Source: Cloacibacillus sp. An23
GTDB taxonomy: Bacteria > Synergistota > Synergistia > Synergistales > Synergistaceae
Length of the DNA stretch: 64,000 bases
Assembly (NCBI RefSeq): GCF_002159945.1
Contig: NZ_NFJQ01000005.1
Location: 124,001-188,000, forward strand
Direction: 5' to 3'
Position 1 is the stretch's first letter. The number at the start of each line of letters is the position of its first letter. The notes beneath the pieces are model-generated. The model did not search any database and was not told the origin of the DNA. It was given only the letters and a program-made list of their open reading frames with translations. This document shows, piece by piece, positions 11,695 through 30,569 of the stretch. The translations under genes and the position numbers were made by a program.

Positions 11695-12804
11695 TCAGCG
11701 GCACAGGGTTTTTTCAACAATGCCGCACAGCGCGTGGCCGAACAGGATGTGCATCTCCTGTATCCTCGGCGTGGCGCTCGACGGGACGCATACGCAGAGC
11801 CCGGCTTCGCGCGCGAGCGCGCCGCCGTCTCCGCCTGTCAGGGCTATGGTGCGGATTCCCATCTTCTTCGCGGCGCGGACCGCCTCAAGCACGTTCGCGC
11901 TGTTCCCGCTCGTCGATATCGCGAGCAGCGCGTCGCCCGCGCGTCCGTGCGCCTCGAGCTGACGCGAGAATATCTTGTCGAAGCCGTAGTCGTTGCCTAT
12001 CGCGGTAAGAGCCGAGCTGTTGCACGAAAGCGCGGCCGCGTCGAGCGGCTCGCGCTCCGCGAGGTAGCGGCCCGAGAGCTCAGCCGCAATATGCTGCGCG
12101 TCCGCCGCGGAGCCGCCGTTGCCGCAGACGAAAAGCCTGCCGCCTCCGCGGAGCGACGATATTATCACGGACGCCGCGGCCCCGGCCTGCGCCTCGAGCG
12201 AACGCATCGCGCTCACAACCTCGGCGTGCTCGCGGAGGTCGCGCGAGAACGAAGCGCGCGCCGCGCCGTCCTCGAACTCGGCTATAGCCTTCGCGGCATC
12301 GCGCAGGTTCCCGCAGTTCAGCGTGCCGCGCGCACCCTTCGCGTACTCCTCCGCGCCGTAGCCCGTCATTAACAGCACCGACGGAGCGCCCAGCGCCTCA
12401 GCCATCTCGAGGTCGCTTTTCTTGTCTCCCATTACGAAGGCTACGTCCGCGTCGGAAAAGCCGAGCTCCTCCTGAGCGCGCCGGACGAGCCCGAGCTCCG
12501 GCTTGCGGCAGCTGCATCCTTCGTCCGGCCTGTGCGGGCAGTGGAACCAGCCGCTCACGCGCACGCCCGAGCAGGCGAGCATCTCGTCCACGCGGAGGTG
12601 GACGGCGTTCATCTCGTCCTCGGTGAAATAGCCGCGCCCGATGCCGGACTGGTTCGTCAGCACGACGAAGCTGTAGCCCATCCCGGCAAGCATGCGCAGC
12701 CCATCCGCCGCGCCCTCGGTGAGTTCCGCGCCGTTCGGGTCGTGCAGGTAATTTTTATCTTTTATGATAGTTCCGTCTCTGTCGAGTATTATCCATCTTT
12801 TCAT
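11695..12804 (-). CDS. Fused heptose-bisphosphate phosphatase / phosphoheptose isomerase (GmhB-GmhA)
   Basis: One 369-residue chain joins two ADP-heptose enzymes. Residues 1 to about 160 form a HAD-IIIA phosphatase: IILDRDGTIIK nucleophile, LTNQSGIGRGYF, the zinc loop FHCPHRPDEGCSCRKPE, and MGDKKSDLEMA. Residues from about 175 form a SIS-domain isomerase: RLFVCGNGGSAADAQHIAAEL, LLAISTSGNSANVLEA and MHILFGHALCGIVE. GmhA turns sedoheptulose-7-phosphate into heptose-7-phosphate, and GmhB removes the C7 phosphate after HldE acts. The start overlaps the hldE stop as ATGA, so the three activities are made from one message. In most bacteria gmhA and gmhB are separate genes. Confidence 0.93.
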   Translation of the reverse strand: MKRWIILDRDGTIIKDKNYLHDPNGAELTEGAADGLRMLAGMGYSFVVLTNQSGIGRGYFTEDEMNAVHLRVDEMLACSGVRVSGWFHCPHRPDEGCSCRKPELGLVRRAQEELGFSDADVAFVMGDKKSDLEMAEALGAPSVLLMTGYGAEEYAKGARGTLNCGNLRDAAKAIAEFEDGAARASFSRDLREHAEVVSAMRSLEAQAGAAASVIISSLRGGGRLFVCGNGGSAADAQHIAAELSGRYLAEREPLDAAALSCNSSALTAIGNDYGFDKIFSRQLEAHGRAGDALLAISTSGNSANVLEAVRAAKKMGIRTIALTGGDGGALAREAGLCVCVPSSATPRIQEMHILFGHALCGIVEKTLCR

Positions 12805-14282
12805 TTTGAATGGGATATCCTTTCTATAACGGATGTGGTCGAATATCCGTCCGTAAGCGGCAGTATAACGACCTCGCCCGCGTATTCGCGTCCCGCGACA
12901 TCCTCCGGGCGGTAGTCCCCGCCCTTCGCAAGCACGTCGGGACGAAGCACGGAAAGCAGCTCAGCCGGCGTGTCCTCGCCGAATACGACAACGGCGTCCA
13001 CCGCCTCAAGCGCGGAAAGCACCTTCGCGCGCGAAAGCTCGCCGTTAACGGGACGGCTCTCGCCCTTCAGCCTCTTCACCGAAGCGTCGGAGTTGAGGCC
13101 GACGATCAGCCGGTCCCCGAGAGCCCGCGCCGCGGTCAGCGAATCTATATGCCCGGCGTGGAGTATGTCGAAACAGCCGTTCGTAAAAACAATTCTCTCG
13201 CCGTTCGCGCGCCATCTGCGGCAGAGCTCCGCCGCGTCGCCGCGCGAATATATCTTGCCGCCGGACTGCGCGCCCTCCTCCGCGACCGCGGAGAGAAGCT
13301 CATCCGCCATTATCGGATATGTGCCGACCTTGCCTATTACTATCTGCGACGCGGCGTTGGCGAGCTTCGCGGCGTCGCACAGCGGGAGCCCCGCTGACGA
13401 GAAGGCCGCAGCCGCAGCTATCATGGTGTCGCCCGCACCGGAAACGTCGTAGACCTCGACGGGCCAGACAGGGATATGCAGCGCCCCGCCGCGTGAGACG
13501 AGCGTCGCCCCCTTCTCAGAGCGCGTCGCGAGAATATTTTCTATACCGTAACGCGAGGCCAACTCCGACGCGGCCTCCGCTACCTCGCCGTCTTCGTTCG
13601 CGACGGCGCGCCCAGCCGCGGCGGAAAGCTCCTTCAGATTCGGCGTAATCGCGAAAGCGCCGCGGTACGGCTCCCAGTCTGATTTCTTCGGGTCAACCCA
13701 GACCTGCATACAGGCGGAGCGCGCGAACGATATGACGCGGCGGCATAGCTCCGGCGAGCAGAAGCCTTTGCCGTAATCGGAAAGCAGGACGAGCCGCGAA
13801 CCGGCGGAAGCGGCCTCCCTTATCTTTGAAACGACGCGCTCTATATCCTCGCCGCGCGGCTCCGTAAGCTGCTCGCGGTCGAGCCGCAGCATCTGTTGGC
13901 GTCCGCCGCCGAGAACGCGCGTCTTGACAGTCGTCGGGCCGAGCGGCGTTATACACTCAGTATCCGCCTCCGCAAAAACGGGCAGAGCCATGAGAGCCGC
14001 GCCCTCCGTATCGTCCCCGACGCTTCCGGCGGCGTACACGCGGACGCCCAGCCCCGCGAGGTTCGCCGCGACGTTGCCGGCGCCGCCCGCGACCAGCCGC
14101 TCCGACCGCACGCGCACGACGGGTACCGGAGCCTCAGGCGAAATGCGCGACACCTCGCCCGTCACATAACGGTCGAGCATAAAATCGCCCGCGACGACGG
14201 CGGGAAAACGCCGGAACCCGCCGAGCAGAAGCTCGCGGGCAAGGATCATCGTTTCGTGTGAAAAATTCGCAGAAAGCCTCAT
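12801..14282 (-). CDS. hldE: Bifunctional heptose-7-phosphate kinase / heptose-1-phosphate adenylyltransferase
   Basis: Length 493 residues, two domains. The N-terminal PfkB/ribokinase domain has AGDFMLDRYVTGEVSRISPE, VAGGAGNVAANLAGLG and the anion-hole motif DVSGAGDTMIAAAA. The C-terminal nucleotidyltransferase domain (from about 345) has FTNGCFDILHAGHIDSL (HxGH) and LNSDASVKRLKG. It phosphorylates D-glycero-D-manno-heptose-7-phosphate at C1 and later adenylylates the 1-phosphate to ADP-heptose for the LPS inner core. With the fused GmhB-GmhA downstream, only the HldD epimerase is missing from the window. Divergent from the flavin reductase gene. Confidence 0.95.
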   Translation of the reverse strand: MRLSANFSHETMILARELLLGGFRRFPAVVAGDFMLDRYVTGEVSRISPEAPVPVVRVRSERLVAGGAGNVAANLAGLGVRVYAAGSVGDDTEGAALMALPVFAEADTECITPLGPTTVKTRVLGGGRQQMLRLDREQLTEPRGEDIERVVSKIREAASAGSRLVLLSDYGKGFCSPELCRRVISFARSACMQVWVDPKKSDWEPYRGAFAITPNLKELSAAAGRAVANEDGEVAEAASELASRYGIENILATRSEKGATLVSRGGALHIPVWPVEVYDVSGAGDTMIAAAAAFSSAGLPLCDAAKLANAASQIVIGKVGTYPIMADELLSAVAEEGAQSGGKIYSRGDAAELCRRWRANGERIVFTNGCFDILHAGHIDSLTAARALGDRLIVGLNSDASVKRLKGESRPVNGELSRAKVLSALEAVDAVVVFGEDTPAELLSVLRPDVLAKGGDYRPEDVAGREYAGEVVILPLTDGYSTTSVIERISHSK

Positions 14283-21005: not shown

Positions 21006-22007
21006 TTATTTGTCTCCGCGCGAATATTTTAAGGCATAATAGGCCTTGAGGCCAAATATCCTGATAAACGGCCTGTAGATGTATCTCCTGTGGAACTTGG
21101 TGCTGTAATCCATGAGGCGGAAACGTTTTTCAATCTCGCTGATTAGTTCTTCATCCCATTCTCCGCTCAGCTTGATCCCGCGAAAGCTCCGCCAGTATAT
21201 GTACGATATCACGCCGAGCAGCGTTTTTCTGAACTCTGGCGACAGGTGCTGAGATTTTGAAAATTCCATGAGCGAGTCGGATACCTTGATGAGATCTGTA
21301 AAACTTTTACGTGTTTCAGGTATTCTGGTAAGCGAGCCTTCTCTTATTCTATAAACATAAATAGAGGCAGGGAAATACTCTACTTTGCGCGCATAAGAAA
21401 ATATTTTCGGCAGCCATTCCTCATCTTCTGATTCAGCCCCGTTATAAAAATATATTCCATTATTAACTATAATATCCCTTAATATGCACCTAAGCCATAC
21501 TACATTCTCAAAACAAGAATTCCTTTCACACCGAGTCCAGACATCTTGTCCACTGCCAGACATGTCTTTAGATTTTTCGTTTCTAATTACATGCCTGACC
21601 ATTCGACCATTTTGCTTGCAACGGTCAAATTCAACTATATCCGCGTCGCAGGTGGAAAGGTAGTCGATTAGGTGGGAAACTGCATCTGGAGTCAGATAAT
21701 CATCGCCGTCAACAAAGAAGAAATATTTGCCGCTTGCAGCGTTTATTCCTGCATTTCTCGCTGACGATACTCCACCGTTTACCTTTTCAACGACAATGAG
21801 AGGAAGATCTGTCTGTCTGTCTGTCTGTCTGTAATTTTTCAGTATTTCGCCGGTGCCGTCGGTCGAGCCGTCGTTCACGACGATAACCTCGGTTCGCGCC
21901 GCAGCCTCTTCCGGCATCCCGTCAAATATTGAGTCGAGGCACTGTCTTATGTACTGCTCGACGTTATATGCAGGAATGATTATGCTTAGCAATTTGCCGT
22001 TATCCAT
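21006..22007 (-). CDS. GT2 glycosyltransferase with in-frame tetranucleotide repeat (probably phase-variable)
   Basis: A 333-residue GT-A enzyme. LSIIIPAYNVEQYIRQCLDS starts the nucleotide-binding fold, VVNDGSTDGTGEIL follows, and FFVDGDDYLTPDAV is the metal-binding DxD region. The C-terminal half is variable and probably binds the acceptor sugar. Residues 59-67 (RQTDRQTD) are encoded by six tandem copies of a 4-base unit (21808-21832). The centre and 3' part of the gene, around 21330-21600, are visibly richer in A+T than the neighbours, which suggests acquisition from elsewhere. The frame is intact here, so the gene is in the ON state. Confidence 0.88.
   Translation of the reverse strand: MDNGKLLSIIIPAYNVEQYIRQCLDSIFDGMPEEAAARTEVIVVNDGSTDGTGEILKNYRQTDRQTDLPLIVVEKVNGGVSSARNAGINAASGKYFFFVDGDDYLTPDAVSHLIDYLSTCDADIVEFDRCKQNGRMVRHVIRNEKSKDMSGSGQDVWTRCERNSCFENVVWLRCILRDIIVNNGIYFYNGAESEDEEWLPKIFSYARKVEYFPASIYVYRIREGSLTRIPETRKSFTDLIKVSDSLMEFSKSQHLSPEFRKTLLGVISYIYWRSFRGIKLSGEWDEELISEIEKRFRLMDYSTKFHRRYIYRPFIRIFGLKAYYALKYSRGDK
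21808..21832 (-). repeat. (GACA/CAGA)6 simple sequence repeat inside a glycosyltransferase gene
   Basis: On the plus strand six TCTG units run from 21808 to 21831 with one more T. On the coding strand this is (CAGA)6. Removing one unit shifts the frame to a TAA at 21781-21779; adding one brings a TGA at 21789-21787. Either change would truncate the protein near residue 75. Haemophilus lgtC is switched by the same GACA repeat. Confidence 0.9.
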
Positions 22008-22035
22008 CGCAGTGCCGCCCTTTCTCTTTTTATCT

Positions 22036-22992
22036 TTATCTCTGCGTCAGGCGTTTCGCCGCCGCAAACACTTCCGACGCGCCTATATCTTCAAGGCAAA
22101 GGCGCGAGCATTCCAGCTTCTCACATCCCTTCTCAGGGCAACCGCAGAAAAAGCAGGCGCCGAGGCTTTCCATGTACATCGTCCCCGCGCCGGGGAAATT
22201 CGGTCCGAACAGCCCCGCCACTGGCTTTCCGAGCGCGCGCGCTATGTGCATCAGGCCGGTGTCGCCGGATATTACCGCGTCCATTTCGGAGACGAGCGCT
22301 ATCGAGCCTTCTATAGATGTGCGCCCCACCATATCCGTCACGAGCGGCGACTTCGCTCCTTCGCATATTTCGCGCGCCGCGCGCGCCTCGTCTGCGCCGC
22401 TTCCCATTAGGTACGTGCCGTATCCCGCTTCCGACGCGAGGCGGCAGAACTCTATCCATCTGCGGACGGGCCATCTTTTAACGGCGGCGCTCGCGCCTAT
22501 GGCGAGGCCGAGTTTTTTGCGTCCGTCCTTCGGCACGCGCCAACCGTCGCTCACTCCGCGCGGAGCGCAAAGGTATGAACCGCATTCGCTCATTTCGCGC
22601 GACGTGTCCATGAGGTCTGAAAAATCAAAGTCCGTATGAGTGAACGGAAATCTGTGTATCGGGCAGTAACGCTTTTTTATCCCGGATAACAGCGAAAACA
22701 GGCTGCTGCGGTCGGAGCCGTGCATATCGACGAGTATGTCGAATCCCATGCGCCGCACCTTTCTAAGCAGCTCGAGATAGCCTCGGTTGCCGGTGTTCTT
22801 CCTGTCCCATTCCATAACGGCGTCCACCCACGGCTGCGCGCGGACGATTCCGGCGTAAAGCGAATCAACGAGCCACGTGAGGCGGAAATCCGGGTGCTTT
22901 TCCTTTACGCGCATGGCTGTGTAGTTGGCGAAGATTATGTCGCCGAGAGATGAAAATCTGAGGAAAAGAACTTCTTTGCGCTTGTCTGCCAA
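22036..22992 (-). CDS. GT9 (heptosyltransferase-type) LPS glycosyltransferase
   Basis: Length 318 residues. EVLFLRFSSLGDIIFANYTAMRVKEKHP is the N-terminal acceptor-binding motif of the GT9 family, DILVDMHGSDRSSLFS follows, and GDTGLMHIARALGKPVAGLFGP is the ADP-heptose binding loop. It would add heptose to the LPS core, using ADP-heptose made by hldE and the fused gmh gene at 11695-14282. The TTG start at 22992 has GGAGG 8 bases upstream. WaaC, WaaF and WaaQ cannot be told apart by eye. A Cys-rich insertion (CFFCGCPEKGCEKLECSRLC) near the C-terminus is unusual and could bind a metal. Confidence 0.9.
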   Translation of the reverse strand: MADKRKEVLFLRFSSLGDIIFANYTAMRVKEKHPDFRLTWLVDSLYAGIVRAQPWVDAVMEWDRKNTGNRGYLELLRKVRRMGFDILVDMHGSDRSSLFSLLSGIKKRYCPIHRFPFTHTDFDFSDLMDTSREMSECGSYLCAPRGVSDGWRVPKDGRKKLGLAIGASAAVKRWPVRRWIEFCRLASEAGYGTYLMGSGADEARAAREICEGAKSPLVTDMVGRTSIEGSIALVSEMDAVISGDTGLMHIARALGKPVAGLFGPNFPGAGTMYMESLGACFFCGCPEKGCEKLECSRLCLEDIGASEVFAAAKRLTQR

Positions 22993-23383: not shown

Positions 23384-24472
23384 TCAGAGCGCGGCGCGAT
23401 AGTCTTCTATTACCCGGCGGTAAAGCTCCGTGGTCTCTCCCGCTATTCGCGCAACGCCGAACTGCGCGGCCCGTTCGCGCGCGCGAGCCGCCGTCTCCGG
23501 CAGGGAAGCTGAGCTAAGGGCGCGGCGAAGGCCGTCGGCTGTCGAACCCGCGTCACCGGGCTCGGCGAACCAGCCGTTCACGCCCTCTTCTATGATGTCG
23601 AGCGGCCCGCCCGCCCGAGTCGCTATCGCCGGAAGGCCGCAGGCCATCGCTTCGAGCAGCACTATGCCGAACGGTTCCGGCTCCTTCGACGGAAGTACGA
23701 AGAGGTCGGCGGCCCACATGTACTGGCGTATGTCCTTCGCGAACGGGAATATTTTTATATTCTCGCGAAACGGCGATTTTTCGGCGAGCGCGGCGAGTTT
23801 GTCCCTTTCCTCGCCGTCTCCGACTATCCAAAGAACGGATCTGTCCGCCTCGGACGGATTTTCCGTGAGAAATTTGCCGTAACCGTTTATGAGCACGTCG
23901 AAGCCCTTCCAATCGACGAACCGCCCGGCGCCGAGGACGGCCTTCACGCCGCCGGACACGCCGAGCGCGGCGCGCCTCTCCGCGCGCACTTTCTCGTCGC
24001 GCGCATATTTTGAAACGTCTATCGGGTTATGCACGACGGCGATTTTACCTTCCGGCACGCCGAGCGAGGCGAAATATTCCTTGACCGAGGAAGAGCATGC
24101 CGCGTAGAAATCGCCGTCTTTGTGGTACTTGAGCTTAGGATATTTGTCTATCGTCTGAAGTACCGGGACGTTTTTATGCTTTCCCCACCAGCCGCCTATT
24201 TTCGCGGCGGAGGAAAGGCGCGTGTGTATAAGGTCTGGGCGGAAGCCGTCTATAAATTTGCCGAGCCTTGTGTTGGTGAACGGCAAAGCCTGAGACAACG
24301 GGCGGCAGAGGCCAAACTCTATACCGGCTTTGTCGAGCCGCTCCGTAAGCGTGCCATAATCGCGGCAGGCGACGAAATTTTCAACGCCGAGCCGCGCAAG
24401 CTCGGAGAGAAGCTGAACCCACGTCTCCCCCCACGCGAGGTTGCTTTCATCGACGTAATGAAGCACGCGCAT
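23384..24472 (-). CDS. GT4 glycosyltransferase
   Basis: A 362-residue GT-B enzyme of the LPS cluster. The N-terminal domain contains RVLHYVDESNLAWGETWVQLLSEL, and the C-terminal donor domain has VLGAGRFVDWKGFDVLI and FVLPSKEPEPFGIVLLEAMACGLPAIAT, a complete EX7E motif. The ATG at 24472 follows the previous stop by one base and has GAGG within the end of that gene. A longer frame to 24520 lies inside the upstream gene and was not used. Donor and acceptor sugars are unknown. Confidence 0.9.
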   Translation of the reverse strand: MRVLHYVDESNLAWGETWVQLLSELARLGVENFVACRDYGTLTERLDKAGIEFGLCRPLSQALPFTNTRLGKFIDGFRPDLIHTRLSSAAKIGGWWGKHKNVPVLQTIDKYPKLKYHKDGDFYAACSSSVKEYFASLGVPEGKIAVVHNPIDVSKYARDEKVRAERRAALGVSGGVKAVLGAGRFVDWKGFDVLINGYGKFLTENPSEADRSVLWIVGDGEERDKLAALAEKSPFRENIKIFPFAKDIRQYMWAADLFVLPSKEPEPFGIVLLEAMACGLPAIATRAGGPLDIIEEGVNGWFAEPGDAGSTADGLRRALSSASLPETAARARERAAQFGVARIAGETTELYRRVIEDYRAAL

Positions 24473-24473
24473 A

Positions 24474-25502
24474 TCAGCGCGCCTCCGAGCCCGCAAGCAC
24501 TTCTTTATATATCCGCTCATCCTCGTCGGCCATCCTGGCGAGCGTCGGCACTGACGAAAGCGGGATATTCACCTTCGCGCGGCGAGTTTTTATGAAATCC
24601 GCTATCGCCTCGCGCCACGCCGCGACGTCGCCTGGCGGCAGGAGATTTTCCGAACTTCCCGCCATCTCGCTGACCGGCGGAATGTCCGAAGCGATCACCG
24701 GAATGCCTATCTGGACGGCGCGCGCAAGCGTCAGCGGCATACCCTCGGTGTACGACGGGAAAAGCAGACACGACGAACGCGCCATAAAATCGTCGGCCTT
24801 ATCGGAATAGCCGTGGAACGTAACGCGCCCCGTAAAGCCGCGCTCTTTCGTTATATTTTCAAGCTCATCGCGCATCGGGCCGTCGCCCAGGACGTCGAGC
24901 GTCCACTCCGCATCCTCCGGCATCGCGCGCAGCGCGTCGTGCAGCCCCTTGACAGGCGACAGCCGCCCGACGAAGAGGAACTTCACCGGCCCGCGCAGGT
25001 TTTCCTCGCTCCAGCGGACCTTCGGCTCGTCAAGGCCGTTCAGGACGACCTGCGTATTGTCGTAAAAACACGCCTTCATGCCTTCGCGCACGGCGTTGCT
25101 GACGCATATCACGCGCGCAGCGTCGCGGTACGGCGCGTATATCCACGGCGATTTGTTGCCGAAGACGACGTGAGCCGTCACGATATACGGAACATGCGCG
25201 GAACCTGCCGCCCAGCGCGCGATCCACGCCGGGACGCGCGAGTGCGCGTGAATGAGCTGAAAGCCCTCGCGCCGCGCAAGCGCCGCGATCTCCCGCGAGC
25301 AAGCCCATATCGTAAAAGGATTTTTTTTATGCACAGGCATATCGACGTGGCGCACCGCGCCTGAGAGCTGGCTTTGCATTTTGCCGCCCGCCGATATTAC
25401 GGTAATCTCGTGCCCGCGGGCCGTAAGCTCGTTCGACAGGTCTATGACATGCCGTTCTACGCCGCCTATATCAAGTTCGGGAAGGATTTCGATGATTTTC
25501 AA
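24474..25502 (-). CDS. GT4 glycosyltransferase with altered EX7E motif
   Basis: About 342 residues. KIIEILPELDIGGVERHVIDLS is the typical N-terminus of LPS mannosyl/glucosyl-type GT4 enzymes, and KFLFVGRLSPVKGLHDAL begins the donor domain. In the donor loop SYTEGMPLTLARAVQIGIPVIAS the second Glu of EX7E is replaced by Arg, which is unusual. The TTG at 25502 is 8 bases from AAGAAGG and gives a family-like start; a GTG at 25511 sits directly on that ribosome site. A run of 8 A residues on the coding strand (25321-25328) could be prone to slippage. Confidence 0.88.
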   Translation of the reverse strand: MKIIEILPELDIGGVERHVIDLSNELTARGHEITVISAGGKMQSQLSGAVRHVDMPVHKKNPFTIWACSREIAALARREGFQLIHAHSRVPAWIARWAAGSAHVPYIVTAHVVFGNKSPWIYAPYRDAARVICVSNAVREGMKACFYDNTQVVLNGLDEPKVRWSEENLRGPVKFLFVGRLSPVKGLHDALRAMPEDAEWTLDVLGDGPMRDELENITKERGFTGRVTFHGYSDKADDFMARSSCLLFPSYTEGMPLTLARAVQIGIPVIASDIPPVSEMAGSSENLLPPGDVAAWREAIADFIKTRRAKVNIPLSSVPTLARMADEDERIYKEVLAGSEAR

Positions 25503-25515
25503 AAGGCGCACCTTC

Positions 25516-26523
25516 TTATCTTTTGTTGAAACGCACGTAGTACGTCTTGTAGTAGAGCCTCGGAAACAGCAGCGCGTACAGAGACTTTATAAAAACTCCA
25601 GGCTTGTCGAAGAACGAGCGAAAACTTCTGAAAAGTATGCCGCGCACATTTTTATCCGCAAGCATTTTTCTGTAATCATCATCAGCTCCGCTTGCCGCAT
25701 AGACGGCGAGCATACGCTGAAGGCCTATCGGTATGACGTATGTATCTACAATATGCTTTGCGGTGTGGGTACGCATGTGGCTCCTAATGAACGCGGCTTC
25801 GTCGAAATGAGCGTCAGTATGATGCTTGTAGCGCGTTATCATTTTTTCGCGCGACGATTCGGATTTTCTCGTACCCATGTTTTCATGCTGAAGATATATG
25901 TAGAGGCAGTCTTTTACAAACGACACCTTCGCGCCGGCCGCTATGACTTTCGTCACAAATTCCACGTCTTCACCGGCCGTCCTCCCTTCGGTAAGACGTA
26001 TGCCGTTTTCCAAAAGGAATTCGCGTCTGTAGATCGCGGCCCACAACATAGCCGTTATCCTGTTTAAAAGGCGGCGGCGCAGAAGTTCGTCCTGCGTCAT
26101 CGCAAATGCACCGTCTATCGACGGATACAGCTTTTCTTTCCCGTTCGCCGCGTCGCGCGTTTTGTAACCGCAGAAAGCAGCGTCTCCGCCGTTTTCCGAG
26201 ACGCTGCCGTAAAGCCGGGAAATGAAATCATGCTCTGCAAGGTCGTCCCCGTCGAAGAATATCACGTATTCGCCCCGCGCCGCCATGAGTCCCGTATTGC
26301 GCGCGGCGGACACGCCTTTGTTGCGGTCGTGGCGCATCAGCCTGTGCTCGACGCCCGACTCATCCAGAGCGTCGCGCGCGCGCTCAAAGGTGGAGTCGTT
26401 CGAGCAGTCGTCCACGACAATTATTTCAAAATCTCTGAATGACTGCGCGGCGAGCGATCCAACCGCAGCACCTATCATAGATTCCAGATTATAGGCCGGG
26501 ATGACGACGCTGACTAACGGCAT
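25516..26523 (-). CDS. GT2 glycosyltransferase
   Basis: A 335-residue GT-A enzyme. The order is PLVSVVIPAYNLESMIGAAV, IIVVDDCSNDSTFERARDAL, GVSAARNTGLMAARGEYVIF and FFDGDDLAEHDFISRLY (DxD metal site). The C-terminal half carries a hydrophobic/basic tail (FIKSLYALLFPRLYYKTYYVRF) that may associate with the membrane. GAGG lies 8 bases before the ATG. It is tightly packed between the GT8 gene and a GT4 gene in the LPS cluster. Confidence 0.9.
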   Translation of the reverse strand: MPLVSVVIPAYNLESMIGAAVGSLAAQSFRDFEIIVVDDCSNDSTFERARDALDESGVEHRLMRHDRNKGVSAARNTGLMAARGEYVIFFDGDDLAEHDFISRLYGSVSENGGDAAFCGYKTRDAANGKEKLYPSIDGAFAMTQDELLRRRLLNRITAMLWAAIYRREFLLENGIRLTEGRTAGEDVEFVTKVIAAGAKVSFVKDCLYIYLQHENMGTRKSESSREKMITRYKHHTDAHFDEAAFIRSHMRTHTAKHIVDTYVIPIGLQRMLAVYAASGADDDYRKMLADKNVRGILFRSFRSFFDKPGVFIKSLYALLFPRLYYKTYYVRFNKR

Positions 26524-26550: not shown

Positions 26551-27582
26551 CTACCGTTTTTCCGCATTTCTCTTCACTCCGAACAGCCCTTTTGTGAATA
26601 TATACGGCAGCGTCCATATATGACCTCTGAAGATGTTGTCGAGTATCTGTTTTTTTACGCGCCGCACGCAGTCGGACGAGTGGAGATGCGCGTACGGCGA
26701 CGACGACAAATCATGAAGCATCGTCCGTATCAGCTCGTTCTCGCTGCGGCAGTACGGCGTAAGCCTGAGATAACGCCAGTACAAATCGTCTACATACGGG
26801 CGCGTGCAAAGCACCCACGGCTTAGCCGCTCCTCCCGCCATATGCCAGATCGAGCCATAGAGCGTTTCTTCCGTCGCACCAGACGCGTCTATATGGTTGA
26901 ACCTCTCGTCTATCAGTAGTTTATCGCCGGCGAAGATATGGTTGAGGCAGTCCTGGTCGGCAAGCGTGATACACTTACGGTATTTCGCGTAGAAATCGGC
27001 GACGGCTTCGAGGAAATCATATTCCTCACGAAGCTTCTTCAAATTCAGAAGAAGGACCCCGGCGTTAAAATATTCGCCGCGCTTTACGCCGAGCATGCGC
27101 CACGCCTTATCCAGCCGCCACGGCAATGGCTTCCCTTTCAGATAGTCGAGCGACCACACGTCGCGTACGGCGGCGACTGCGCGCCCGTCGAGAGGGACGT
27201 TCCACAGCTCTGCTATATCCATATTCACGACTATGTCGCAGTCTAGATAAATGATTTTGTCTTCAGCGCATATCTCAGGCAGCAAGAGCCGGAAGAGAGT
27301 CCCGCGCGCGCCGTCGAGCGTCAGACGGCTCACGTCTACGCTGCCGGCGTCAAGCATATTCTCGACGTTGATGAACTTTATTTCCTGTCCGTAGGACGAC
27401 GACAGCCGCGTCAGCTTGTCACGGTTGTCGCCCGTGAGCGTGTCGTCATGTACTATGTGCAGGCATACGGGATGCTTGGTGTTCGCAAAGACCGACGCCA
27501 TCGTAACGGCCGCGTGACGGCAGTAAGTACCTTTAGGGTCGCAGAAAGCCAGCGCTATGTGGATTTTGTCGTTCGCAGACAT
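26551..27582 (-). CDS. GT8 glycosyltransferase (LPS galactosyl/glucosyltransferase-like)
   Basis: Length 343 residues. The GT8 signature is complete: IHIALAFCDPKGTYCRHAAVTMASVFANT, IIYLDCDIVVNMDIAELW (DxD), YFNAGVLLLNLKKLRE, LADQDCLNHIF, and IWHMAGGAAKPW (HxxGxxKPW, metal and UDP binding). Such enzymes add galactose or glucose to the LPS core with retention of configuration, and the nearby galE would supply UDP-galactose. AAGGTGG lies 7 bases before the ATG. Confidence 0.93.
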   Translation of the reverse strand: MSANDKIHIALAFCDPKGTYCRHAAVTMASVFANTKHPVCLHIVHDDTLTGDNRDKLTRLSSSYGQEIKFINVENMLDAGSVDVSRLTLDGARGTLFRLLLPEICAEDKIIYLDCDIVVNMDIAELWNVPLDGRAVAAVRDVWSLDYLKGKPLPWRLDKAWRMLGVKRGEYFNAGVLLLNLKKLREEYDFLEAVADFYAKYRKCITLADQDCLNHIFAGDKLLIDERFNHIDASGATEETLYGSIWHMAGGAAKPWVLCTRPYVDDLYWRYLRLTPYCRSENELIRTMLHDLSSSPYAHLHSSDCVRRVKKQILDNIFRGHIWTLPYIFTKGLFGVKRNAEKR

Positions 27583-27596
27583 CGCGCTGCCACCTT

Positions 27597-28874
27597 TTAT
27601 TCAGTAGTAGCAGACTGAGGCGCAAAGCCGCAATCTTTTTTTTCACGCGTCTCAGGCAGCGCTGCAATAATGCCCATGGACGCCCAGAAAATGACGGCAA
27701 GATCCCTGCGCGCCTCAAACACGTCGCCTGTCATGCCGTAAACCAACTGCCCGCCGAGCATCACGAGGAAGATAAGATGCCACGGCACACCGTTTTCAAT
27801 ACGAAAGCGTCCTCGCCAGCATTTTTTTATCATCATAAAAAGCGCAGCTACGAAGAGAAGAACCGATGGAACGCCGGATGAGACTGCAAGCTCGAGGTAC
27901 ATGTTGTGCGCGTGGCTGCGCGCGACGAAATCAAGCTTGGCATACTCAGTATTTTCTTTCAGAGCGCGTCCGTAGACCTCTTCCAGATTCTTTCTTCCGT
28001 ATCCGGCTATCGGACGATCTGCCACGAGGCCGGAGACTATGCGCCAAATCGACGACCTGTGGTTGGTCAGCGATTGCGCGTCCCGAACGGAAGATATTTG
28101 GCGAAGCTCTACTTCAAAACGTTTCTGTATGGCGCCGCCGGAAATATGGTTGAAAGCCGCCAGCACGAGCACGCCAGCGCATATCCCGGCTCCGATGCTG
28201 ACAAGTTTAATTTTCCCGGCGCACGCAGCATAATATAGTATGAACGGGAGCATGAGGAACACCGTGAGCCACGCTCCGCTTGCGAACGAGATGAAGAGAG
28301 TCACCATGCTGACGATGCACGAGAAATATTTCAGAAAGTATCGTTTTTCCCATATCCACAGGGCGTAAAAGAAAATATACGGAACAGCAAGCACAGGATA
28401 CAGCCCAAGAGTGTTGCCGTTCATCGTAAGACGTTTAGGCAAAGTGAACGGGAGCGGAACGTAAGCCTTGATGATTATCAGGCAAAAGATGAAAGTCGTA
28501 AGAGGAACGAAGAATTTGATGAACGTCTTCCGCGCATCCTCCGAATCAAACAGCCGCACTGCGAAAATGTAGCCAACCAGAAGTTCAAGGTACACCGACG
28601 CGCCTTGGCCCCACACTTCAAAATCCGTCATGAAGAACACATTGGCGAAAGCGCTCCAAATGAAAAAGACCGTCATTACGATAGAAATATCCTTGCATGA
28701 CTTGCTTTTGAAGGATACCAACTTATCTTTATATCTCACGCGCCCGTAGATCAGCAGCCCGAGGACGAGGACATAGCCGACGTAGTGTACGGCGGGGGCG
28801 AATATGGTGAAAATTATCGATGTCAGATAGATATATCTCGCGGCGATTTCATACGAAACATCGTACAGTCTCAT
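27597..28874 (-). CDS. O-antigen ligase (WaaL/Wzy_C family)
   Basis: A 425-residue polytopic inner-membrane protein with about eleven hydrophobic segments. The periplasmic loop contains SLTNHRSSIWRIVSGLVADRPIAGYG and the catalytic-type His in VARSHAHNMYLELAVSSGVPSVLLF, as in WaaL and other Wzy_C proteins. It would join O-antigen or other polymer to lipid A-core on the periplasmic face. It is the first gene of the minus-strand LPS cluster. The spacer 28875-28978 upstream is AT-rich and must hold the promoter, but no hexamer pair stands out. Confidence 0.85.
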   Translation of the reverse strand: MRLYDVSYEIAARYIYLTSIIFTIFAPAVHYVGYVLVLGLLIYGRVRYKDKLVSFKSKSCKDISIVMTVFFIWSAFANVFFMTDFEVWGQGASVYLELLVGYIFAVRLFDSEDARKTFIKFFVPLTTFIFCLIIIKAYVPLPFTLPKRLTMNGNTLGLYPVLAVPYIFFYALWIWEKRYFLKYFSCIVSMVTLFISFASGAWLTVFLMLPFILYYAACAGKIKLVSIGAGICAGVLVLAAFNHISGGAIQKRFEVELRQISSVRDAQSLTNHRSSIWRIVSGLVADRPIAGYGRKNLEEVYGRALKENTEYAKLDFVARSHAHNMYLELAVSSGVPSVLLFVAALFMMIKKCWRGRFRIENGVPWHLIFLVMLGGQLVYGMTGDVFEARRDLAVIFWASMGIIAALPETREKKDCGFAPQSATTE

Positions 28875-28978
28875 CTGCTTCGATTCCTCTCCTATACTGA
28901 TGCAATTAAATACATTTTAGCACAGCGCTTTACAAAATATAAATAATTCATGCTCTGTCAAAAGGGCTCAGATTTTTT

Positions 28979-29008
28979 TCGACAATGCGCCGGGGCCGCT
29001 GTTATACT
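28979..29008 (+). promoter_or_regulatory. Probable promoter of the AlbA_2-domain gene
   Basis: TCGACA (28979-28984), an 18-base spacer and TATACT (29003-29008) lie 32 bases before the ATG at 29040. The gene stands alone, so it needs its own promoter. Confidence 0.4.
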
Positions 29009-29039
29009 ATGCGTTAATAATTGTCGAGGAGATACCGCT

Positions 29040-30569
29040 ATGCTGAGGACAATAAGAAAGCTGATAAAAGAAGGAGAAGGCTTCACCGTTGAATTCAAAA
29101 AATGCAAAGATTCTTTGCCGTCGAGCGTGTTTGAAACAATATGCGCGTTCCTCAACAGACATGGCGGAGACATCCTGCTCGGCGTCGACGACGGCGGTAA
29201 CGTTACCGGAGTAAAGGATGAGGCGATCGAACAGATTAAGAAAGATTTCGCCAGTTCAGTCAACAATAAACAAAAACTGAGCCCTACGTTTTACATCAAT
29301 CTCGACGCTTATAAACTGAACGGGAAGTATATACTGCACACACATATCCCGGAAAGTTCGCAGGTACATAGATGCTGTGGACGCATTTACGACAGGAACG
29401 AGGACGGGGACTTCGATATCACGGATAATACCGCTCTCGTCTCCGAAATGTACATCAGAAAAAACAATACTTACACCGAAAATAGGATTTTCCCTTTTGC
29501 GGAGATGTCCGACCTTCGCAAAGACCTTATAGCCAGAGCAAGAATCACGGCGGTCAACGCGCGTGGCGGCGGGCATCCGTGGGCTCTGATGTCTGACGAG
29601 GAGCTGTTGAAAAGCGCGAGCCTGATAAGCAAAGACATGACGACGGGCAAATCAGGAATAACTCTCGCGTGTATCCTGCTTTTCGGCAAAGACGAGACCA
29701 TTATGAACGCTCTTCCGCACCACAGAACGGACGCTATTATGCGCAGAAAGGACTTGGACCGGTACGACGACAGAGACGATATCCGCACAAATCTACTGGA
29801 AAGCTACGACAGGCTGTGCGCGTTTGCGGCAAAACATCTCAACGACGCATTCAGTCTGGAAGGGACGATAAGGATCAGCGTCAGGGATAAGATTATGCGA
29901 GAGCTTGTCGCCAACTGTCTGATACATAGGGAATATTCAAACGCGTTTCCGGCGAAACTCATTATCGAAAAAGACAGGGTATATACCGAAAACGCCAACA
30001 AACCCATCAGGACAGGACGCATAGATATCCGGGATTATACCCCGTATCCAAAGAATCCTGTGATCGCACGTGTTTTTAAGGAAATGGGTTATGCCGACGA
30101 ACTAGGGTCGGGCATTAGAAATATTGTCAAATATACAAAAATATATGCGGATACCGAACCCGTTTTTGAAGAAGGAGATATTTTCAGAACGTATATTTTC
30201 ATCAATGAGCGCCTTTCCGCGGCCGACGATAATACGGGACGGCCGCTTGAGACGGAAAGCGAGCCCAAGATGAGGCCCAAGACCGAGCCCAAGATAAGGC
30301 CCAAGACAGAGCCCAAGATGAGGCCCAAGACAGAGGCGGTAACAACGGAAGAAATTATTCTTGCCCTGCGCGAGCGTACAGACGCAAGCAAGCGCGAAAT
30401 CGCGGAAATGCTGGGACAAAAGAGTATTTCCGGTTCATTGAAAAAAAGTATGGCGTCGCTGCTGAAGGAAGGGCTGATAGAGCCGACTATACCGGATAAA
30501 CCGAGAAGCCGTTATCAGCGTTACAGAATGACGAAAAAGGGATTGGAGCGCTCGAAGTCTGCCGGCTAA
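29040..30569 (+). CDS. AlbA_2/Schlafen-domain ATP-binding regulator-like protein
   Basis: A 509-residue cytoplasmic protein. The N-terminal AlbA_2 domain has FTVEFKKCKDSLPSSVFETI, then AFLNRHGGDILLGVDDGGNV. A GHKL ATPase-like domain follows (MRELVANCLIHREYSN and MGYADELGSGIRNIVKY). Next is a repetitive linker of PKMRPKTE units, and last a winged-helix segment (TDASKREIAEMLGQKSISGSLKKSMASLLKEGLI). GAGGAG lies 8 bases before the ATG at 29040; an open frame from 28950 is not used. It is a lone plus-strand gene between two minus-strand clusters, with a less GC-rich sequence, so it may be mobile cargo. Members are often called transcriptional regulators, but the true function is not settled. Confidence 0.8.
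   Translation: MLRTIRKLIKEGEGFTVEFKKCKDSLPSSVFETICAFLNRHGGDILLGVDDGGNVTGVKDEAIEQIKKDFASSVNNKQKLSPTFYINLDAYKLNGKYILHTHIPESSQVHRCCGRIYDRNEDGDFDITDNTALVSEMYIRKNNTYTENRIFPFAEMSDLRKDLIARARITAVNARGGGHPWALMSDEELLKSASLISKDMTTGKSGITLACILLFGKDETIMNALPHHRTDAIMRRKDLDRYDDRDDIRTNLLESYDRLCAFAAKHLNDAFSLEGTIRISVRDKIMRELVANCLIHREYSNAFPAKLIIEKDRVYTENANKPIRTGRIDIRDYTPYPKNPVIARVFKEMGYADELGSGIRNIVKYTKIYADTEPVFEEGDIFRTYIFINERLSAADDNTGRPLETESEPKMRPKTEPKIRPKTEPKMRPKTEAVTTEEIILALRERTDASKREIAEMLGQKSISGSLKKSMASLLKEGLIEPTIPDKPRSRYQRYRMTKKGLERSKSAG
30261..30335 (+). repeat. 24-bp in-frame tandem repeat (3 units)
   Basis: Units start at 30261, 30285 and 30309 (GAGCCCAAGATGAGGCCCAA and close variants, 24 bases each) followed by a partial GAG. 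Because 24 is a multiple of three, copy-number change would alter linker length without shifting the frame. The encoded linker is rich in Pro, Lys, Arg and Glu. Confidence 0.85.

Follow-up and report, generated by a model that had tools for sequence, protein, structure and literature searches.

A GT2 glycosyltransferase gene of Cloacibacillus sp. An23 carries a run of GACA units that very probably makes it a simple-sequence contingency locus, switching by slipped-strand mispairing. The gene lies within the 64,000-nucleotide stretch of DNA analyzed here (the window), where the locus comprises the following features.

21006 to 22007, minus strand: GT2 glycosyltransferase gene, 333 amino acids, intact, frame currently ON (Pfam PF00535, E=1.3e-32)
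21808 to 21832, minus strand: (GACA)n tract, 6.25 units, encoding RQTDRQTD (residues 60 to 67)
21779 to 21781, minus strand: TAA encountered when one unit is lost, giving a 74-aa product (frame rebuild)
21787 to 21789, minus strand: TGA encountered when one unit is added, giving a 74-aa product (frame rebuild)
22018 to 22025, minus strand: ribosome-binding-site-like AGAAAGGG ahead of the GT2 ATG (read from the sequence)

On the forward strand the tract reads (TCTG)6T, a perfect 25-nt run whose coding sense on the minus strand is (GACA)n, and the source genome has no other (GACA)n tract of 4 or more units. It starts at about codon 59 of 333 (58 codons, or roughly 18%, into the gene), whereas the repeat of Haemophilus LOS genes usually lies near the start codon. 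A sequence-only reading of this locus had claimed six in-frame 4-base units at 21808-21831, which proved correct, the whole run being 25 nt. It had also placed a TAA at 21781-21779 upon unit loss and a TGA at 21789-21787 upon unit gain, and both stops were recovered when we rebuilt the frame in silico for 1 to 12 units. The open reading frame is open at 3, 6, 9, and 12 units; at 1, 2, 4, 5, 7, 8, 10, and 11 units, the product is truncated to 66 to 82 aa. With a unit length that is not divisible by three, a single-unit step is enough to shift the frame and truncate the protein. At 25 nt, the tract exceeds the maximum of 15 nt observed for period-4 runs in ten simulations of the sampled 2.45 Mb under an order-5 Markov model, and its six units pass the tetranucleotide cut-off of 5 or more units used by PhasomeIt (PMC5953494).

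The encoded protein has a Glycos_transf_2 domain with a DxD motif (PF00535), in which D100/D102/D103 and E194/D195 are invariant or nearly so in an alignment of 18 sequences. All truncated products end upstream of the DxD motif and the catalytic residues and thus hold none of these positions. In the mechanism that we propose, the tract would gain or lose units during replication by slipped-strand mispairing; the enzyme would be made at 3, 6, 9, or 12 units, and at other unit numbers translation would stop within about 20 codons of the tract, leaving an inactive stub of 66 to 82 aa. Production of one sugar linkage of an LPS-type surface glycan would then be turned on and off at random within a cell line. 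Tract length presumably changes in living cells, and such changes may affect phage, immune, or niche interactions. The length is known from one assembly, as a single length of six units, which is short compared with the approximately 10 to 12 units published for Haemophilus lgtC (PMC6479036), so that the switching rate could be low.

The sequence-only reading had suggested aligning the protein with homologues lacking the repeat, and this alignment identifies RQTDRQTD as an insertion: it occurs in none of the 22 other GT2s aligned. At this site, four proteins with 34 to 43% identity over most of the gene (L008 to L011) are 5 residues shorter and nearly all others are 3 to 4 residues shorter (L017, 2 residues); three units in place of six would give a protein of the usual homologue length. 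The homologues recovered by the contig search were distant GT2s only, with no orthologue in a second genome and no match in the same-genus genome. In the AlphaFold model (pLDDT 87), whose closest solved folds are GalT1 (5hea), TarS, and RmlT, RQTDRQTD is placed at the end of the helix spanning residues 52 to 62 and in the following loop, and the repeat-loop block has a pLDDT of 69 versus 94 to 96 in the adjoining blocks. This position and the lowered pLDDT suggest that steps of 4 residues would be tolerable in the protein. Alternatively, RQTDRQTD could be a selected protein feature, such as a loop or binding motif, that arose from similar codons with no switch at the DNA level. While the in-frame tract and a protein predicted to fold around these residues are compatible with this idea, the residues are absent from all aligned homologues, their codons are perfectly periodic at the DNA level, and relatives carry the GACA unit out of frame and outside genes, which together make it very improbable.

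The sequence-only reading had further assigned the gene to an LPS cluster, and the Pfam matches of its neighbors agree with this.

11695 to 14282, minus strand: heptose biosynthesis, with a fusion of HAD phosphatase and SIS isomerase and an HldE-like kinase/nucleotidyltransferase (Pfam)
22036 to 22992, minus strand: heptosyltransferase-type GT9, upstream neighbor of the GT2 gene (PF01075, E=1.6e-30)
23384 to 25511, minus strand: two GT4-type glycosyltransferases
25516 to 26523, minus strand: second GT2, without repeats
26551 to 27582, minus strand: GT8 of the cluster, without repeats
27597 to 28874, minus strand: O-antigen ligase/Wzy_C family protein (PF04932, E=8.9e-16)

The combination of heptose synthesis, GT9, GT4, GT2, GT8, and O-antigen-ligase-family genes points to LPS or an LPS-like molecule as the product of the cluster, and the tract-bearing GT2 presumably acts on this glycan. 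Another tandem repeat of the window, with 3.1 copies of a 24-bp unit at 30261-30335, lies in an open reading frame on the plus strand (28950-30569); it is an in-frame protein repeat and not a frame switch, because 24 is divisible by three.

A scan for runs of all periods, covering 2.45 of the 2.90 Mb of the source genome (85%), showed that the number of period-4 runs drops about four-fold per base, down to one run of 14 nt, beyond which four outliers of 25, 26, 27, and 51 nt stand apart. Three of the four fall within surface genes or at their start, namely, the GT2, a GT8, and a Synerg-CTERM protein. For periods 1 to 3 and 5 to 9, the sole comparable outlier in the scanned part was a 21-nt ATG run in a DNA methylase gene, and long poly-G, poly-A, or 5-mer outliers were absent from this 85% of the genome. 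The genome encodes MutS, and its lack of long mono- and dinucleotide tracts fits with this. Loops formed by tetranucleotide units evade mismatch repair. Besides the GT2 tract, the period-4 outliers are as follows.

G000:C1:28933-28958 (L106:8933-8958): (CCAT)6.5 at the 5' end of an orphan GT8 gene (GT8 domain, PF01501, E=6.7e-23)
G000:C5:42276-42326 (L143:2276-2326): (CTCA)12.75, downstream of an ATG and ahead of the signal peptide of a Synerg-CTERM surface protein
G000:C11:122885-122911 (L225:2885-2911): (GTTG)6.75, intergenic, between a recN-like open reading frame and a DUF1266 gene

Judging from the start codons read in the sequence, both of the additional coding tracts appear to be OFF. 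The CCAT tract starts 31 nt past a GTG with a strong ribosome-binding site, just ahead of the GT8 domain, and a change of +1 or -2 units would open the frame; for the surface protein, which features GLUG, Ig-like, and Synerg-CTERM domains, the change would be -1 or +2 units. The orphan GT8 gene adjoins phosphate-transport genes. CCAT tracts were found nowhere else in the family, and CTCA tracts are present in 3 other family genomes, where three loci that were inspected showed no clear surface gene.

These additional tracts bear on the possibility that the GT2 tract is a real microsatellite that expanded in the past and is now effectively stable, either as a mildly polymorphic coding repeat or as a decaying contingency locus fixed in the ON state. 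Six units are close to the published cut-off of 5, and the gene is intact and ON, with a single length in one assembly, as might be expected of such a locus. However, both other coding tracts of the source genome are out of frame, and longer tracts, of 12.75 units in this genome and of up to 28.75 units in relatives, indicate that the lineage sustains such repeats. We therefore consider a stable microsatellite unlikely. Contingent switching of the GT2 gene, as proposed by the sequence-only reading, appears best supported, considering the insertion relative to homologues, the two further surface-gene tracts, and the presence of GACA tracts in phase-variable gene classes across the phylum.

The arrangement resembles that of the LOS genes of Haemophilus influenzae, in which an intragenic tetranucleotide repeat switches the frame of LPS/LOS sugar or acetyl transferases, with several tetranucleotide loci per genome (PMC6479036). 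As the sequence-only reading had stated, the GACA unit is identical to that of lgtC and a related repeat is found in lic2A, where the unit is CAAT; lex2A and oafA carry GCAA (PMC6479036). In contrast to lgtC of H. influenzae, the gene described here belongs to GT2 and not GT8, its tract lies well inside the gene and counts only six units, and its host is a member of the Synergistota. Orthology to LgtC found no support, given that Pfam reports GT2 only and the structure matches GT2 enzymes; since LgtC is a GT8 enzyme, the parallel is one of mechanism only. The source genome's GT8 with the CCAT tract does belong to the LgtC fold family, a likeness at the family level. The phasome of Neisseria features the same classes of repeat-bearing genes (glycosyltransferases, adhesins, and mod/hsdS; PMC5953494), and the 5-unit cut-off applied there is also passed here; unlike Neisseria, the source genome has period-4 outliers and no long poly-G, poly-A, or 5-mer tracts in the 85% scanned. 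In the open-access literature searched, we found no published case of repeat-driven phase variation in Synergistota, in line with the novelty suspected by the sequence-only reading. The phylum is absent from a 2025 review of phase variation (PMC11868660), and one paper reports invertible DNA in Synergistota (PMC5903667).

Tracts of at least five GACA units are present in 21 of 188 Synergistota genomes, mostly from the same family as the source genome. For comparison with units of the same composition (the reversed GACA pattern being the same repeat), we used AACG and GCAA, which were found in 2/188 and 17/188 genomes, respectively; because GCAA is almost as frequent, the idea that GACA is a singularly favored unit was abandoned. 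The occurrence of similar tracts in 21 independent genomes also speaks against an assembly or sequencing artefact at the GT2 locus. Although the assembly is a draft of 31 contigs, the 25-nt tract is shorter than one short read, its flanks are clean, and the gene is intact, so that an artefact is scarcely credible. End-anchored searches of 41 genomes returned 44 distinct (GACA)n tracts of 4 or more units, 12 of which lie within an open gene or at its 5' end.

Source GT2, a GT17, a SAM methyltransferase, and a PglD_N-like protein
A GNAT protein and an acyltransferase-3: both tracts near the N terminus and out of frame
A hexapeptide-type transferase: out of frame
Three HsdS proteins, L063 (G039), L069 (G027), and L097 (G172): tract between the specificity domains, two out of frame and one in frame
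A BspA-type LRR surface protein
An adhesin-like protein without a Pfam match

These genic tracts divide about evenly between in-frame and out-of-frame, a pattern that drifting lengths would produce. The three HsdS genes of relatives are candidate phasevarions, resembling the Type I HsdS of NgoAV in being interrupted by a repeat; the NgoAV tract is a poly-G tract (PMC7394358), while that of the relatives is a tetranucleotide, and the window's own gene is not an HsdS. In another Synergistota family, a Core-2/I-branching (GT14-type) glycosyltransferase gene contains an in-frame (GCAA)6.75 tract (L235 in G109).

It is probable that part of the Synergistota, above all the source family, possesses a tetranucleotide-repeat phasome. 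This phasome would span glycosyl- and acyltransferases for LPS, Type I specificity subunits (the candidate phasevarions), and surface proteins, and would have arisen independently of the Haemophilus system with overlapping units (GACA and GCAA); some of the intergenic tracts may switch promoters of paralogous genes. The best-known cases of repeat-driven surface variation come from mucosal pathogens among the Proteobacteria. If the tracts vary, clonal populations of Synergistota anaerobes would become diverse in surface sugars, in surface proteins, and possibly in methylation patterns, with effects on phage resistance, immune recognition, and metagenomic strain typing. The GT2 locus itself is of a known kind, and it gains interest from the family-wide set of tracts.

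The majority of the remaining (GACA)n tracts are intergenic, reaching 28.75 units, and several are part of genome-specific dispersed repeats. It is tempting to speculate that the latter serve as promoter-type switches for paralogous genes or, alternatively, are mobile elements. Dispersed-repeat tracts with conserved flanks were observed in G007, G022, G016/G031/G177, and G081 to G083 (loci L062 to L105).
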